Part shown: in pieces, positions 2 through 5,372 of the stretch | Layout: each line of letters opens with the position of its first letter | Position numbering within the stretch: position 1 is the stretch's first letter | Assembly (NCBI GenBank): GCA_031265345.1 | Contig: JAISCU010000242.1 | Location: 1 to 5,372, forward strand | DNA from: Bifidobacteriaceae bacterium | GTDB lineage: Bacteria; Actinomycetota; Actinomycetes; Actinomycetales; WQXJ01 | DNA length: 5,372 nt | Direction: 5' to 3' | Notes under the pieces: generated by a model | What the model saw: the letters and a program-made list of their open reading frames with translations, nothing else | What the model was told of the DNA's origin: nothing | Databases searched by the model: none | Position numbers and translations under genes: made by a program

Positions 2-1543
2 GTGCACATGCAAGACGCGCTTGATCTGGCTAGATGGCAGTTCGGCATCACCACTGTGTACCACTTCATCTTTGTTCCTCTGACCATCGGCCTGACGCCG
101 CTGGTCGCTTTGCTCCAGACATTCTGGTTCAAGACCGGCAAAGACGAGTGGTACCGCCTGACACGGTTCTTCGGCAAGCTCTTACTGATCAACTTCGCGC
201 TGGGCATCGTTACCGGCATTGTCCAAGAGTTCCAGTTCGGTCTGAACTGGTCCGAGTATTCACGCATGGTGGGCGACATCTTCGGCGCACCACTGGCAAT
301 GGAGGCGCTGGCGGCGTTCTTCGTCGAATCGACCTTCCTGGGCATCTGGATCTTCGGCTGGGGCCGCCTGTCGCGCGGCGTCCACCTGTTGACCATCTGG
401 TTGGTGGCTTTCGCCGTCAACCTGTCGGCTTTCTTCATCCTGGCGGCGAACTCCTTCATGCAGTACCCGAAAGGCGCCACCTTCGACGCTGAATTGGACC
501 GCGCGGCCATGGCGAACCTGGGCGAGGTCCTGTTCTCCCCACTGTCCCTGTCGACCTTCTGGCACACCATCTCGACCGCCTTCGTGGTGGCCGGCACCTT
601 CATGGCCGGCATCGCGATCTGGTGGATGGTCAGGGCGGTTCGGGCCGGCAACCAAGAGTCGGCCAAGGTCTACCGTCTGGGCGGCGCGGTCGGTTGCTGG
701 GCCGTGCTGATCGCGGGCATCTCGTTGGTCTTCTCCGGCCATCACCAGGCCCAGGTCATCACCGAGTTGCAGCCGACCAAGATGGCTGCTGCGGAGATGC
801 TCTGCGTGACGCCCGATCCCGGCGAGGGCGCCGGGTTCACGGTCATCGCCTTCGGCGAATGCGTCCAGAACGCGGACGGCACCTTCGACGAGGACTCGGT
901 CACTCGGCTGATCGAGATCCCGAAGATGCTCTCGTGGCTGGCCTGGACCAATGGCGACGCGCAGGTCACCGGCATGGACAAGGCGGAAGAAGTGCTCGAC
1001 GCGGCGTACCTGACGCCGGAAGAGGCCGAGGGCCTCGACTGGATTCCGCCGCAGGGCGTGGTCTTCTGGACCTTCCGACTGATGATCGCTTTCGGCGCGT
1101 TCTCGGCGGTGTTGGCCGTGGTCGGCCTGCTGGCTCTGCGCGGCGGACGGACCAGTGGCAGCGGTTTCTTGAAGTCGTGGGCGCTCATCTCGTTGCCCAC
1201 CCCGTTCCTGGGGGCCGCGTTCGGCTGGATCTTCACCGAGATCGGCCGCCAACCGTTCATCGTCTATCCGGCGGTGACGCCGGCTTTGACGCCGGAGAAT
1301 CCGGTCATGAGCGGCGTGGCGACGGACCTGTCCCTGCAGACCGCCAATGCGGTCTCACCTGTCGTCAGCGCGGGCTCCATCGTCTTGACGGTGGTCTCGT
1401 TCACGCTGCTCTACCTGGTTCTGGCCGTTGCCTGGTTCTACCTGATGAAGCGTTACACGTCCAAGGGCTTGAACTACGACGAAGCCATACCCGAGGTGAA
1501 GGCCGACTTGGATGATTCCAAGCCGTTGACCTTCTCGTACTGA
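2..1543 (+). CDS. cydA: Cytochrome bd quinol oxidase subunit I (CydA), short Q-loop type
   Basis: CydA carries haems b558, b595 and d, oxidises quinol at the outer membrane face and reduces O2 to water. Seen with the GTG at 2 as residue 1: about nine membrane segments; H21, H188 and M361 match the E. coli haem ligands H19, H186 and M393; E101 and E109 match E99 and E107. K260 and E265 match the quinol-site K252 and E257. The Q loop (about 246-352) lacks the long E. coli insert. C268 and C287 are spaced 19 residues apart, as in the mycobacterial Q-loop disulfide recalled from the literature. The usual GRQPW motif reads GRQPF (415-419). The C-terminus ends PLTFSY, like mycobacterial CydA. The start is uncertain: GTG at 2 or ATG at 8. 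The ATG would give exact E. coli ligand numbering; the RBS and promoter lie outside the window. Length is normal for the family. First gene of an operon with cydB. Confidence 0.97.
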   Translation: MHMQDALDLARWQFGITTVYHFIFVPLTIGLTPLVALLQTFWFKTGKDEWYRLTRFFGKLLLINFALGIVTGIVQEFQFGLNWSEYSRMVGDIFGAPLAMEALAAFFVESTFLGIWIFGWGRLSRGVHLLTIWLVAFAVNLSAFFILAANSFMQYPKGATFDAELDRAAMANLGEVLFSPLSLSTFWHTISTAFVVAGTFMAGIAIWWMVRAVRAGNQESAKVYRLGGAVGCWAVLIAGISLVFSGHHQAQVITELQPTKMAAAEMLCVTPDPGEGAGFTVIAFGECVQNADGTFDEDSVTRLIEIPKMLSWLAWTNGDAQVTGMDKAEEVLDAAYLTPEEAEGLDWIPPQGVVFWTFRLMIAFGAFSAVLAVVGLLALRGGRTSGSGFLKSWALISLPTPFLGAAFGWIFTEIGRQPFIVYPAVTPALTPENPVMSGVATDLSLQTANAVSPVVSAGSIVLTVVSFTLLYLVLAVAWFYLMKRYTSKGLNYDEAIPEVKADLDDSKPLTFSY

Positions 1544-1564: not shown

Positions 1565-3640
1565 ATGTTGACTAGCATTCTTGCTCTCGCTCCGGCAGCC
1601 CCGGTCGACCCGGCTGCGACTGAAGCCACCGCCGACGGCCTGGTCGGGCTGCTCCACCGGCTGGTGGAGGCTCCGCAGGGCCTGGAGCTTCTGTGGTTCG
1701 CGCTGATCGCCGTCCTGTGGACCGGCTATCTGGTGCTCGAAGGGTTCGACTTCGGTGTCGGCATGTTGTTGCCGATCATCGGCAAACGCGACAACGAACG
1801 TCGGGCCATGCTCTCGACCATCGGCCCGCTGTGGGACGGCAACGAGGTCTGGGTACTGACCGCTGGCGGCGCGACCTTCGCCGCTTTCCCGGAGTGGTAC
1901 GCGACCTTGTTCTCAGCGGCTTATCTGCCGCTGTTCCTGATCCTGGTCGGTTTGATCATCCGCGCCGTGGCGTTCGAGTACCGCGGCAAGATCGACGGCG
2001 TCGGTTGGCGCAAGCTCTGGGATTGGTGCATCATCCTCGGTTCGTGGATTCCCGCGATCCTGTGGGGCGTCGCCTTCGCCAACCTGGTGGCCGGCGTCAA
2101 AGCTGGCGTGGACGCGGCCCAGCTTGGCCCGTCGAAGATCCTCTACGACGGCAATTTCTTCGACTTGGTGTTCGCGCACAACGGCTTCCTGCTGCTGGGC
2201 GGCCTGACCACGGCGGCCCTGTTCATGGCCCACGGCGCGATCTTCCTGTCGCTGAAGACCGATGGCGAGGTCCGCCGACGGGCGGAGTCGTTGGCGCCCA
2301 AGCTGTCGATCGCGGCGACGGTGATCGCCGCCGTCTGGGTTGTCTGGCTGGGCTTCAAGTTCGCCGGTGGCAACCATCCGACGGTGTTGATCTGGATCGC
2401 CATCGCGGTGGCGGCCGTGGCCTTGGTCGTGGTGGTGCTGACCACCCTGGCCAAGAAGTCTGGACTGGCCTTCACCTCGATGACGGTGGCCTTGCTGGCG
2501 GCGGTGGTGACGATCTTCGCCGCGCTGTTCCCGAACGTGATCAACGGCTCGCGCGTGCGGATCACGGGCGATGCCGTGGCCGATCCGATCGTGGGCGCTG
2601 TGGTGCTCGACGGCGTGACCTTGGCCGATGTGGTGAACATCACCTTCGACCGGGTCGCTGCGGACGGCTTGCCGGAAGTGCCCGCCGAGCCCGCGGACAA
2701 CGCCGCCGCCATCACGCCGCTGATCTTGGAGAACGTGCGGGACCAGTCTTATCCGGCCCTCCAGGCACAGGGCGTGCCGCTGCCGCAAGCCGGGGTCGAG
2801 GCCGTCGTCAAGGCGACCTTCGACCGAGTCAAGGATTCAGGCGCCGACTTGTCCCAGGTCGGAGTGGACATCACAGAGCCCAGCGTGTTGGCGACTCAGC
2901 TCACGGTCGGTGTGCTGGATGATGTCGCGAACGGCGTGTTCCCGGCTCTCGGCGTGATCTCGCAAGAGAACGTGGTGGACGTTGTCACGATCACGCTGGC
3001 CCGTCTCGGACTTCCAACTGACGACACGACCATCAACGCGGTGGTCGCCGACGTGGTGGCCCACAAGGACGCGCTGGACCAACTGAAGGCCGAGTCGATC
3101 GAAATCGGCGACCTGGCTGGCGCCACCATCGCCGGCCAGCCGGCCGACGTGGTGGCCGTCCAGGTCGCCATCACGGTGGACGCGTTGGTGCCGTTCATCC
3201 AGGACAGTGTCAGCCAAGTGGTGAACGTCGAAGTCCCCGCGACCTTGCAGGCCGTGGCGGACAACCCGGCCACCCAGAAGTTCTCTGACGGCTTCGACGT
3301 GACGGAGATCGTCACGGGCAAGGCCTGGGAGAACGATGACGGCCTGGCGAACCTAAACGGCGCCGTGGACAACGCCAACGAGGCCCTGAACGCCCTGGTG
3401 GTCCTGGGTCTGCTGGACAGCCACACCCCGTTGGCGCAGTTCGAGCGTGGCGATGTGATCACCGGTCAGCCGATCCACGCCGCCGCCTCCAGCGAGAAGA
3501 CGCTCAAGCTGATGACCATCGTGGCCGTCTGCCTGGTGCCGATCGTGCTGGCGTACCAAGCATGGTCGATCTGGGTGTTCCGCCGTCGCATCAGCGCCGA
3601 GCGGATTCCAGCCGAGTCGGGTCTACCGGCCAAGGCATGA
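1565..3640 (+). CDS. cydB: Cytochrome bd quinol oxidase subunit II (CydB) with large extracytoplasmic insertion
   Basis: CydB is the haem-free partner of CydA in the membrane. Seen: 691 residues against about 340-380 in the family. GFDFGVG (60-66), LWDGNEVW (89-96) and R133 match E. coli D29, W57/D58 and R100 with a constant offset of 33, so the N-terminus is about 33 residues longer. I read nine membrane segments (about 42-70, 82-108, 112-136, 151-180, 200-230, 246-268, 273-296, 300-325, 645-672). The core is interrupted after LFPNV (321-325) and resumes at about residue 637 (IHAAASSEKTLKLM). Family members have only about a dozen residues there. The end, RRRISAERIP, is typical of actinobacterial CydB. 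The ATG is supported by AAGGAG at 1551-1556, 8 bases upstream. The reading frame is open throughout, so this is not a frameshift product. Arginine- and lysine-rich loops after helices 1, 3, 5 and 7 and at the C-terminus put the insert and the N-terminal extension outside the cell. It lies 21 bases after cydA and before a terminator. Confidence 0.96.
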   Translation: MLTSILALAPAAPVDPAATEATADGLVGLLHRLVEAPQGLELLWFALIAVLWTGYLVLEGFDFGVGMLLPIIGKRDNERRAMLSTIGPLWDGNEVWVLTAGGATFAAFPEWYATLFSAAYLPLFLILVGLIIRAVAFEYRGKIDGVGWRKLWDWCIILGSWIPAILWGVAFANLVAGVKAGVDAAQLGPSKILYDGNFFDLVFAHNGFLLLGGLTTAALFMAHGAIFLSLKTDGEVRRRAESLAPKLSIAATVIAAVWVVWLGFKFAGGNHPTVLIWIAIAVAAVALVVVVLTTLAKKSGLAFTSMTVALLAAVVTIFAALFPNVINGSRVRITGDAVADPIVGAVVLDGVTLADVVNITFDRVAADGLPEVPAEPADNAAAITPLILENVRDQSYPALQAQGVPLPQAGVEAVVKATFDRVKDSGADLSQVGVDITEPSVLATQLTVGVLDDVANGVFPALGVISQENVVDVVTITLARLGLPTDDTTINAVVADVVAHKDALDQLKAESIEIGDLAGATIAGQPADVVAVQVAITVDALVPFIQDSVSQVVNVEVPATLQAVADNPATQKFSDGFDVTEIVTGKAWENDDGLANLNGAVDNANEALNALVVLGLLDSHTPLAQFERGDVITGQPIHAAASSEKTLKLMTIVAVCLVPIVLAYQAWSIWVFRRRISAERIPAESGLPAKA
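2543..3472 (+). other. CydB insertion domain of unknown function (about residues 327-636)
   Basis: This segment of cydB has no counterpart in ordinary CydB, where helices 8 and 9 are joined by a short outer loop. By my count it has about 45 acidic and about 13 basic residues and no cysteine. It is rich in Val, Ala and Asp and has no obvious membrane helix. Hydrophobic stretches alternate with polar ones, as in a folded, repeat-containing soluble domain. The positive-inside rule places it on the outer face, the same side as the CydA Q loop, so it could cover the quinol site, bind a partner or cell-wall component, or stabilise the complex; all of this is inference. I recognise no known domain. 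Base composition looks like the rest of cydB, which argues against very recent foreign insertion. Confidence 0.85.
2627..3313 (+). repeat. Four degenerate protein repeats of about 58 residues inside the CydB insert
   Basis: A motif of the form [DA]-V-V-x-[IA]-T-[FL]-[DA]-R-[VL] recurs in CydB at residues 355-364 (DVVNITFDRV), 413-422 (AVVKATFDRV) and 472-481 (DVVTITLARL). A weaker fourth copy starts at 528 (DVVAVQVAIT). Spacings are 58, 59 and 56 residues, with unit starts at bases 2627, 2801, 2978 and 3146. The first two units also share a PAL-x-x-GV / PALGV element near their ends (397-404 and 460-464). Similarity is at the protein level, suggesting old tandem duplication. The right boundary is approximate. 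Confidence 0.6.
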
Positions 3641-3813: not shown

Positions 3814-4617
3814 TTAGGCTCCGTCCGCTCCGGGGCCGAGGGCGGGATCGCGCAGAGCCCGGTTGATCCGCTTCATGCCCCAGCCCGTCAGCGCGGGTAG
3901 TCGCCTGACCGCGAGCCCACGGGCGGCCATTTCGCGGACCACCACGACTTGGGTGCGACTGGGCAGGTCCGCGAACGTCGCGCGACCGTACGCGCTGACC
4001 AACTCCGCCAAGACCGTGGCCGCTTGGTGGTTCGAGACCAGCGGGTGCGGGCCTCGGCGGTTTCCTGTCAGGGCCTGCTCGACGGCATCGTCTGCGTTGT
4101 CGTTCTGGGCTTCGAACGCGACGATGCGTTCGAGCGGCAGCAACTGCGCCAGACGCGCTATGTCTGCCGAACCCGGTCGCCCGTCGAGCTGCGGGCGGGA
4201 GCTCCACGGATAGTCGCCTGCGGCGTGGGCCAGTCCGGCTTTGACGGGATTGCGGTGAATGTAGCGGATCACGGCGGCGAGGTAGGCGTCATCGTTGACA
4301 GGGAAGGCCTTGAACCGACCTTGGAATAGGTGGCCCACCCGGTCGTGGCGCCAATTGAACCACTTCGCGTAACAAGAATTGAGTCGCTGGAAGAAGGCGC
4401 TGATCTGCGAGTCTTTGTCCCCGAGAAGCAGATGCACATGGTTGGGCATGAGCGCGTAGACCAGCACCGACATTCCGAATCGGTCGGCGGCCTCGGTGGC
4501 CAGCGCGAGGTAGCGGCGGTAGTCGGCGTCATCCGTGAAGATGGTCCGCTTGTTCACCCCGCGTGTGACGGCGTGGTAGACACCGGATTCGCTGATCGGG
4601 CGGCCGGATCGGGGCAT
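3814..4617 (-). CDS. REP-associated tyrosine transposase (RAYT; Y1/HUH family)
   Basis: Single-strand DNA transposase or nuclease of the Y1_Tnp/RAYT family, expected to nick at hairpins through a tyrosine-DNA link. Seen in the 267-residue product: an N-terminal YHAVTRG strand (14-20), the metal-binding HUH motif in MPNHVHLLL (H60 and H62), GHLFQGRFKAF (95-105), the likely catalytic tyrosine Y119 in RYIHRNPVKAG, and YPWSS (136-140). These are the signature motifs of the group in the right order, and the frame is intact. The C-terminal part (about 142-267) is helical and ends in a helix-turn-helix-like stretch (REMAARG...LTGWGMKRINRAL), probably for hairpin recognition. The frame is open upstream to 4761, but ATG at 4617 is chosen because a strong RBS precedes it and family similarity begins there. 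The gene is convergent with cydB and divergent from the heme-binding gene. The stop is TAA. Confidence 0.93.
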   Translation of the reverse strand: MPRSGRPISESGVYHAVTRGVNKRTIFTDDADYRRYLALATEAADRFGMSVLVYALMPNHVHLLLGDKDSQISAFFQRLNSCYAKWFNWRHDRVGHLFQGRFKAFPVNDDAYLAAVIRYIHRNPVKAGLAHAAGDYPWSSRPQLDGRPGSADIARLAQLLPLERIVAFEAQNDNADDAVEQALTGNRRGPHPLVSNHQAATVLAELVSAYGRATFADLPSRTQVVVVREMAARGLAVRRLPALTGWGMKRINRALRDPALGPGADGA

Positions 4618-4623
4618 TCGTGT

Positions 4624-4630
4624 CCTCCTC
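4624..4630 (-). promoter_or_regulatory. Ribosome binding site deciding the RAYT start
   Basis: The - strand reads GAGGAGG, then six bases, then ATG at 4617. This near-perfect Shine-Dalgarno fixes the start and rules out the 48 extra upstream residues, which show no family similarity and would begin with a GTG inside the right-hand palindrome. Confidence 0.88.
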
Positions 4631-4735
4631 GGGCAGTTCTCGCTCGGTGCCAGGTTACGTGCGCCGGAGTCGTCTTTGCACGATGCCGCCGTGACAGTCC
4701 CAATGGATGGCCGCGCGAACCGTCGGGCGGGTGCT
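4631..4735. other. Upstream region of the RAYT gene, nothing recognised
   Basis: The stretch between the RAYT RBS and the right-hand repeats must contain the RAYT promoter, if the gene has its own. I found no convincing -35/-10 pair and no gene here. Confidence 0.4.
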
Positions 4736-4753
4736 ACCAACGGGGTTGGTGCC
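4736..4753 (+). repeat. Partial REP-like sequence
   Basis: GGGTTGGTGCC at 4743-4753 is identical to 11 bases of the left palindrome arm (3761-3771). It forms a small palindrome of its own, ACCAAC-GGG-GTTGGT (4736-4750). It lies directly beside the full right copy on the RAYT side and looks like a decayed or half REP unit. Confidence 0.5.
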
Positions 4754-4756
4754 CCG

Positions 4757-4789
4757 AACACGGGTTAGTGCCAGGCACCAACCCGTTTT
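4757..4789 (-). repeat. REP-like palindrome, right copy
   Basis: The arms at 4757-4772 and 4774-4789 pair at 14 of 16 positions around a single A. Read on the - strand, the element matches the left copy at 31 of 33 bases, so the two are inverted relative to each other. It lies 140 bases upstream of the RAYT start and about 50 bases before the iron-box region of the next gene. Its imperfect arms contrast with the perfect left copy. Confidence 0.82.
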
Positions 4790-4964: not shown

Positions 4965-5372
4965 ATGGCTGACGCCCGCTCTGGACGCTTGGCCGGCGCG
5001 GCCCGATGGGCGCCCGCGGCCTGGTTGGCGATGGCCATGGCGGTGGCCATGACGGCCACCACGGCCTGCGCCCCGAATGGAGCGGGCGCCAGCGGAACGA
5101 CTGGCACCGCCGTTTTCGACCCCGCCCAGGCGTTGCCCGACCCGAAGTCCTATGTCGGCCCCTCGACTGCCGCAGTGCCCGAAGCGGCCATCGTGCCGAT
5201 CACCGAGCAGCCCAGCCCGGCGCTGCCCGCCGAAGTCGTCGACTCCCAGGGGACGGCCGTCACCATCACCGACGTGAGCCGTGTCCTCGCCCTCGACATC
5301 TACGGCACGACCAGCCGGATCGTCTTCTCGTTGGGGCTCGGGGGCAACGTGGTGGGCCGGGACACTTCATCG
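4965..5372 (+). CDS. hmuT: Heme-binding ABC transporter lipoprotein, HmuT-like (partial, runs off the right edge)
   Basis: This is the start of a substrate-binding protein for heme import. It would capture heme outside the cell and pass it to an ABC permease/ATPase (HmuUV in related organisms). The first 136 residues are visible. There is a signal peptide with an arginine-containing N-region and an Ala-rich core (16-32), then a cysteine at 35 in TTACAP as the probable lipid anchor; the usual Leu at -3 is missing, so the lipobox is weak. A low-complexity Ala/Pro/Gly linker of about 60 residues follows. From residue 99 the sequence VTITDVSRVLALDIYG and then FSLGLGGNVVGRDTS matches the opening of the periplasmic-binding fold in HmuT/BtuF-like proteins. 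AAGGAG at 4951-4956, 8 bases before the ATG, supports the start. The iron boxes upstream agree with heme/iron uptake. A vitamin B12 or siderophore binder is a less likely alternative. Confidence 0.85.
   Translation, partial: MADARSGRLAGAARWAPAAWLAMAMAVAMTATTACAPNGAGASGTTGTAVFDPAQALPDPKSYVGPSTAAVPEAAIVPITEQPSPALPAEVVDSQGTAVTITDVSRVLALDIYGTTSRIVFSLGLGGNVVGRDTSS

Follow-up and report, generated by a model that had tools for sequence, protein, structure and literature searches.

Cytochrome bd is a compact enzyme of two subunits, sometimes accompanied by small one-helix accessory subunits, and CydB is its half without hemes. The locus studied here raises the question of what a large extra segment is doing between the last two membrane helices of a CydB. 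The window, that is, the whole stretch of 5,372 nucleotides that was analysed, contains at 1565-3640 a gene whose product we assign to CydB of cytochrome bd from its profile matches, its modelled nine-helix fold and the adjacent cydA, located directly upstream. It scored 326 bits with PF02322 (Cyt_bd_oxida_II; curated cut-off 35.6) and 286 with TIGR00203 (cut-off 117). The features of the two genes are the following:

2-1543, plus strand: cydA, the partner subunit (PF01654, E 8e-140).
797-1057, plus strand: Q-loop of CydA, longer and more acidic than the standard one in the comparison of CydA rows.
1256-1363, plus strand: outer loop of CydA between helices 8 and 9 (loop 8), enlarged in the comparison of CydA rows.
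1565-3640, plus strand: cydB, 691 amino acids including the insert (open reading frame; PF02322 E 3e-97; TIGR00203 above cut-off).
1565-1681, plus strand: N-terminal extension of CydB, about 37 residues, on the outer side and leading into helix 1 (mean 36.7 in 21 long rows vs. 1.6 in 18 standard rows).
2540-2617, plus strand: N-terminal base of the insert, residues 326-351, well conserved (0.68-0.84 per 10-residue block), its start common to short loops.
2618-2758, plus strand: first copy of the repeat, divergent, residues 352-398 (7.2 bits and i-E 0.008, a weak match to the repeat model).
2780-2956, plus strand: full two-helix repeat unit, residues 406-464 (repeat-model match of 65.2 bits, i-E 6e-21).
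2957-3010, plus strand: partial repeat, residues 465-482 (weak match to repeat-model positions 1-18, i-E 0.04).
3011-3262, plus strand: helices in the middle of the insert, residues 483-566, some stretches of which vary in length (model and alignments).
3263-3481, plus strand: C-terminal base of the insert, residues 567-639 (alignment; conservation 0.77-0.78 in three blocks).
3500-3595, plus strand: helix 9 of CydB and the basic residues that follow (model helix 644-671; alignment with solved CydB).

The LFPNV motif of this CydB occupies residues 321-325 (2525-2539) and the insert lies at 2543-3472 (residues 327-636, NGSRV...ITGQP), placing about 310 extra residues between helices 8 and 9. Both flanks aligned with solved chains (7d5i_B to residues 39-327 and 637-689; 7nkz_B to residues 40-327 and 636-690) and the whole is read in a single open frame, as the preliminary description had proposed. 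In alignment A1 the segment corresponding to residues 322-643 averaged 22.7 residues in 18 standard rows vs. 362 in 21 long rows. Loop 8-9 measured 16-18 residues in all 20 standard loci matched by a sequence pattern, a count that covers pattern-matched loci and in which L015 and L143 look like the same gene; the dozen or so residues formerly given for an ordinary CydB was slightly low, while the contrast with the insert stands.

An assembly artefact is contradicted by 20 further distinct CydBs that carry the insert on separate contigs. Inteins typically start with Cys, Ser or Thr and end with a His-Asn pair before Cys, Ser or Thr. This insert starts INGSRV and ends ITGQPIHAAASS, the His-Asn pair being absent, and no Intein/Hint or homing-endonuclease profile was found using Pfam and NCBIfam on CydB or Pfam on 12 inserts. 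For residues 327-636, Pfam returned nothing significant (best E 0.15), the best NCBIfam hit (E 0.0031) reached 15 bits vs. a cut-off of 859, and the best E values were 0.034 with PHROGs on the insert and 0.036 with Pfam on the 12 inserts. The insert sequence gave no significant alignment with solved structures, and its model gave no match above chance level using Foldseek (PDB, BFVD) and VIA-align, a result that agrees with a new fold without proving one. The proposal of a real extra domain thus withstood the artefact, the intein and the already named domain, and in the open-licence literature, as far as its available text goes, we found no cytochrome bd described with such a domain. A weak insert match was seen at G014:C190:27331-27711, minus strand (L092; E 0.001, 33% identity), in a 967-residue open frame that is not the CydB of G014.

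The insert is folded and mostly helical in the AlphaFold2 model of CydB (44 rows; mean pLDDT 87.5, pTM 0.78), with a mean pLDDT of about 89 (73-94 per 10-residue block). Strands mark its entry (324-334) and its exit (634-636, a short one), with 13 helical segments between them (341-613); predicted alone, the insert kept a mean pLDDT of 85.4 (pTM 0.80), with the end strands unformed. When compared with M. tuberculosis CydB, the modelled core, including helix 9, superposed at 1.5 A (339 residues). The nine model helices agree with the published CydB topology (PMC8413341, PMC9846854; available portions of the text, as for the other papers cited here), and the C-terminus FRRRIS is inside by the positive-inside rule. 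This places the insert outside the membrane, on the side of quinol oxidation, as previously suggested.

Residues 322-650, compared with 5.8 billion proteins, retrieved 14 proteins, that of the window among them, and an insert profile retrieved nine (P0016-P0018 from this search were left out of later analyses); all proteins in both sets had PF02322. The insert alone as query returned one CydB piece. In a scan of 84,980 species genomes, 348 relatives were confirmed, and among the best 80 of these 348 the insert was present in L001-L011. Submitters had labelled L001-L010 as Bifidobacteriaceae metagenome-assembled genomes (MAGs), and L011 is the Micrococcales MAG Lab288P4bin104. The named carriers are gut MAGs: Lab288 corresponds to Labiotermes labralis (PMC7024585) and Gsp477 to a Glyptotermes sample (PMC11707648, on another bin of the same sample), and from the style of the remaining sample codes we infer that they are termites also. 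The highest identity of the window in the CydA plus CydB set was 91%, to L102. Since cytochrome and quinone synthesis are missing from the termite Bifidobacteriaceae of PMC11707648, the insert-bearing genomes probably belong to another lineage.

Among the 18 genomes of the G002 family, 11 had the long form, one (G018) an intermediate form and five a short loop, and one (G015) lacked CydB. Of the 221 genomes in the G011 family 216 had a match, with the best E below 1e-98 only in G011, G092 and G094, all long forms, the others being judged by E-values and the matches listed only. A search of 396 genomes sampled across the order gave 13 matches to the insert profile, namely the same 11 long forms and two short-loop genomes, the latter at the C-terminal end of the insert only. 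In a phylum-wide sample PF02322 was found in 135 of 396 genomes; among the matches listed, that of G002 stops at the insert start and a few others are incomplete, including G707, G853, G773 and G942. The survey of CydB length in actinobacteria that had been advised thus revealed long, intermediate and short loops among relatives of the window, next to the standard ones.

CydD scored above cut-off in 17 of the 18 G002-family genomes, and ferrochelatase and a strong MenB-like match, mostly just below the curated cut-off, were each present in 15, which makes it probable that the oxidase belongs to a functioning menaquinol chain. G015 is the sole member without a CydB match; its CydD was not above cut-off, and its ferrochelatase and MenB-like matches were present. 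No conserved neighbour gene other than cydA was found in the loci read. In the window, a transposase of the REP-associated tyrosine (IS200-like) type lies on the minus strand at 3814-4761 between cydB and the next gene (PF01797 E 2.9e-15, above the Pfam cut-off for IS200-like; NF047646 71 bits, below its cut-off of 80). On visual comparison, the open frame starting at 4965 (4965-5372) is similar to ABC binding proteins encoded at related loci, and the piece by itself had no profile match. Three long-form loci have an ABC substrate-binding protein 3' of cydB (L001:7102-8274, L004:6565-7716, L006:6320-7435), with weak TIGR04281 likeness and, in two of the three, likeness to heme-type IsdE, all far below cut-off. 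In four short-loop genomes and the long-form G008, cydD is directly 3' of cydB.

The relatives form a graded series of loop lengths. Three short loops measured 42, 57 and 57 residues by pattern, and two more (G013, on two contigs; L116) were by eye similar or slightly longer, giving about 40-65 residues for these sister CydBs; the long forms spanned 296-472 residues (21 rows, one ended by a contig end). The short loops of L012 and L014 have both ends of the long insert (INAS-K-TLVGDA and TGLPI-AASSS), and the insert profile matched the C-terminal end, ITG.PI.AASS, in the short-loop CydBs of G014 and G017. Long inserts contain one to three full copies of a repeat unit of about 62 residues. According to a repeat model seeded from five units, full or nearly full units number one in 11 of the 21 long rows, the window included, two in nine and three in one, with partial and divergent copies also present. 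Repeats of at least 30 nt in the DNA were found in one of three inserts examined, that of L010 (72% over the longest, 83 nt), and not in those of the window or L001; this near-absence implies that the duplications are not recent. L112 (G018) has an intermediate CydB with an outer loop of 158 residues, in which the repeat model found no unit.

In a 33-row tree of CydA plus the CydB core, all 21 rows with a short, intermediate or long loop fell into one group on a long branch (100/100), within which the long and intermediate rows grouped together (95/97). L112 was nested among the long rows, and a clade of long rows without it was rejected (AU p 0.0015), implying that L112 was shortened or that long forms arose twice. 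The position of the three long forms of the G011 family inside this group suggests a transfer of the operon.

CydA differs as well in the genomes with the insert. Its Q-loop averaged 90.5 residues and a net charge of -13 in 15 long rows vs. 77 residues and -5.8 in 12 standard rows, with overlapping charge ranges (-9 to -19 and 0 to -11, respectively), and its loop 8 averaged 34.7 vs. 21.2 residues; the five short-loop rows lay in between. As seen from the sequences, this is an association among related rows and no proof of contact. The Trp that follows GRQP in loop 8 is replaced by Phe in 12 of the 15 long rows and L112, and is kept in L011, L129, L130, all five short rows and the 12 standard rows aligned. 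Two Cys in the N-terminal part of the Q-loop occur throughout the aligned long, intermediate and short rows and in a few standard ones, resembling the disulfide pair of the M. tuberculosis enzyme (PMC8413341). In CydB, with the two sides of the membrane assigned by the nine-helix topology, growth was seen in four of the five segments that face outward and in none of the cytoplasmic ones; outer loop 2-3 showed no growth. The dimer interface of the C. glutamicum enzyme is built from helices 2, 3 and 9 of each subunit, and the mouth of its oxygen channel lies between helices 1 and 9 of CydB (PMC9846854); in the M. tuberculosis enzyme, loop 8 of CydA is packed against the Q-loop (PMC8413341). Since helix 9 is preceded by the insert and helix 1 by the extra N-terminal segment (about 37 residues), both additions would frame the opening of this channel.

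All 21 long inserts are acidic (net charge -26 to -48) at identities as low as 37%, and contain 3-7% Lys plus Arg, 13-18% Ala and 12-16% Val; no Cys, His, Met, Trp or Tyr is conserved across all of them. Few positions apart from the two ends of the insert are conserved, and those retained in 95% or more of 20 inserts carry mostly small or hydrophobic residues. The binding proteins adjoining cydB (L001, L004, L006), used as a control, carry a net charge of -17 to -22 per about 340 residues and 6-7% Lys plus Arg. In six pairs, dN/dS was 0.11-0.48 for the insert and 0.09-0.17 for the core, higher for the insert in all six, some values being rough with dS near or above 1; on this measure the insert evolves 1.2 to 4 times faster.

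We tentatively favor a reading, held at somewhat less than an even chance, in which the insert is a cap with a conserved base by the mouth of the oxygen channel and acidic, variable repeats directed toward the cell wall. In this reading the insert is a genuine module, confidently predicted to fold, on the outer face of a cytochrome bd quinol oxidase from a gut-associated actinobacterial lineage, having grown inside an already lengthened loop 8-9 and changing its length largely by whole two-helix repeats. Its conserved ends would make a base beside helix 9, at the CydA-CydB interface of solved relatives and near the co-enlarged outer loops of CydA, that holds and shapes the outer face on the quinol side and around the channel mouth, which lies between helices 1 and 9; the repeats would protrude from the membrane as a negatively charged, exchangeable layer. 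A contact of the insert with CydA, an effect on oxygen, quinol or proton traffic, and the reason for the exchange are what we infer beyond the data. Against the cap, loop enlargement is seen within a single group of related rows, which makes the co-occurrence of enlarged loops weak evidence; CydA Q-loop charges overlap between long and standard rows and CydB loop 2-3 did not grow; acidity, to a smaller degree, is also a feature of the lineage's secreted binding proteins; rapid evolution is unusual for a part tied to catalysis; and a position near the oxygen channel is uninformative by itself.

The exchangeable character of the layer comes from the conflict between core-only and insert-only trees (21 rows). 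Among clades picked after inspecting the trees, a core group of seven was rejected by the insert data (AU p 0.0004) and the insert group P0004-P0010-L001 by the core data (AU p 0.0005), and a third insert group, of six, was not rejected by the core data (p 0.30). L001 and L006 are 92% identical in the core and 46% in the insert, vs. 84% and 82% for L001 and P0010. At fourfold-degenerate sites, core and insert differed at the 95% level in 22 of 66 pairs, which are not independent; the insert was more diverged in 19 (e.g., WIN/L004), which could partly reflect codon bias of the core, and less diverged in three, including L001/L005. On these comparisons the conflict suggests that relatives have exchanged the insert, or else the core surrounding it, as a cassette; for L001 and L005, which come from one sample, a chimeric assembly is a residual alternative, and their inserts are only 82% identical.

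This exchange, together with the variable number of full repeats and the higher dN/dS of the insert, would also be expected if the insert were a surface target in an arms race with a phage, bacteriocin, predator or other binder, its repeats and sequence being varied by recombination around a fixed core. We consider this main rival of the cap rather unlikely, given that the binder is a conjecture, dN/dS remains below 0.5, one insert clade was not rejected by the core data, the clades were chosen afterwards and one pair may be chimeric; moreover, the origin of the domain and the growth of the CydA loops are left unexplained. The cap and the arms-race target can both hold, the former for the base and the latter for the tip.

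Helical-repeat builds often serve binding elsewhere. The build, the extracytoplasmic position and the conserved base would therefore suit a docking domain that keeps the oxidase in position by binding an assembly factor, the cell wall or an enzyme that reduces quinol. This reading is improbable considering the scarcity and mostly hydrophobic or small nature of conserved positions outside the ends and the lack of a shared neighbour gene beyond cydA. The gut of Glyptotermes, a lower termite, is near neutral. This argues against an acidic proton-holding layer at the outer face, by analogy with the H+-capacitor proposed for cytochrome c of alkaliphilic Bacillaceae (PMC12457358), as G002 comes from a Glyptotermes sample (PMC11707648); the persistent acidity of the long inserts, the on average more acidic Q-loop and the release of quinol protons on the outer side (PMC8951039) speak for such a layer, which we judge quite improbable, the analogue being itself a hypothesis and the secreted binding proteins being acidic as well. 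Nearly neutral expansion of a tolerated loop by repeat duplication, with no function of its own, would fit the fast evolution, the variable length and the nesting of G018 among long forms, and has little probability in view of a dN/dS well below 1, the confident predicted fold, the conserved ends, the long form in 11 of the 17 CydB-bearing G002-family genomes and the absence of an insert in SecY, the single control protein.

The repeats, the short precursor loops, the enlarged CydA loops, the strong acidity and the conflicting histories of core and insert go beyond the preliminary description. In its full form, the proposal is an acidic ectodomain with a new fold and a variable number of repeats, which is anchored at the mouth of the oxygen channel and travels as a cassette between related gut bacteria; the outer face would then vary in the manner of a surface antigen on a fixed membrane core. 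We regard this combination as possible, on balance doubtful. If true, a CydB outer domain about as large as the membrane core, variable in length and apparently exchanged, would mean that the outer face of the oxidase is able to evolve as an interface. With loops that range naturally from short to long, a role of this face becomes testable, be it in oxygen access, quinol oxidation, stability or recognition by others.

The solved actinobacterial CydBs (M. tuberculosis 7nkz/9fka, M. smegmatis 7d5i, C. glutamicum 8b4o) share with this protein the family, the nine-helix fold, the adjacent cydA and helix 9 in place, but are chains of 330-360 residues with a short loop 8-9 and neither outer domain nor N-terminal extension. 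The acidic N-terminal segment of cytochrome c in obligately alkaliphilic Bacillaceae is likewise an acid-rich extracytoplasmic part of a respiratory protein, although it is not a folded repeat domain in an oxidase and its proposed role is a hypothesis (PMC12457358). Loop 8 of mycobacterial CydA, with eight extra residues packing on Qh3 of the Q-loop (PMC8951039, PMC8413341), is also a lineage-specific enlargement of an outer loop 8-9, thought to stabilize the outer face; it differs in comprising eight residues in CydA, without repeats, vs. about 300-470 in CydB. Large inserts in an outer loop of a conserved membrane protein are known as well from the periplasmic side of TatC in Myxococcus xanthus and Nitratifractor salsuginis (PMC13323110; 9E0S), disordered in N. 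salsuginis and, in M. xanthus, folded and adding subunit contacts.
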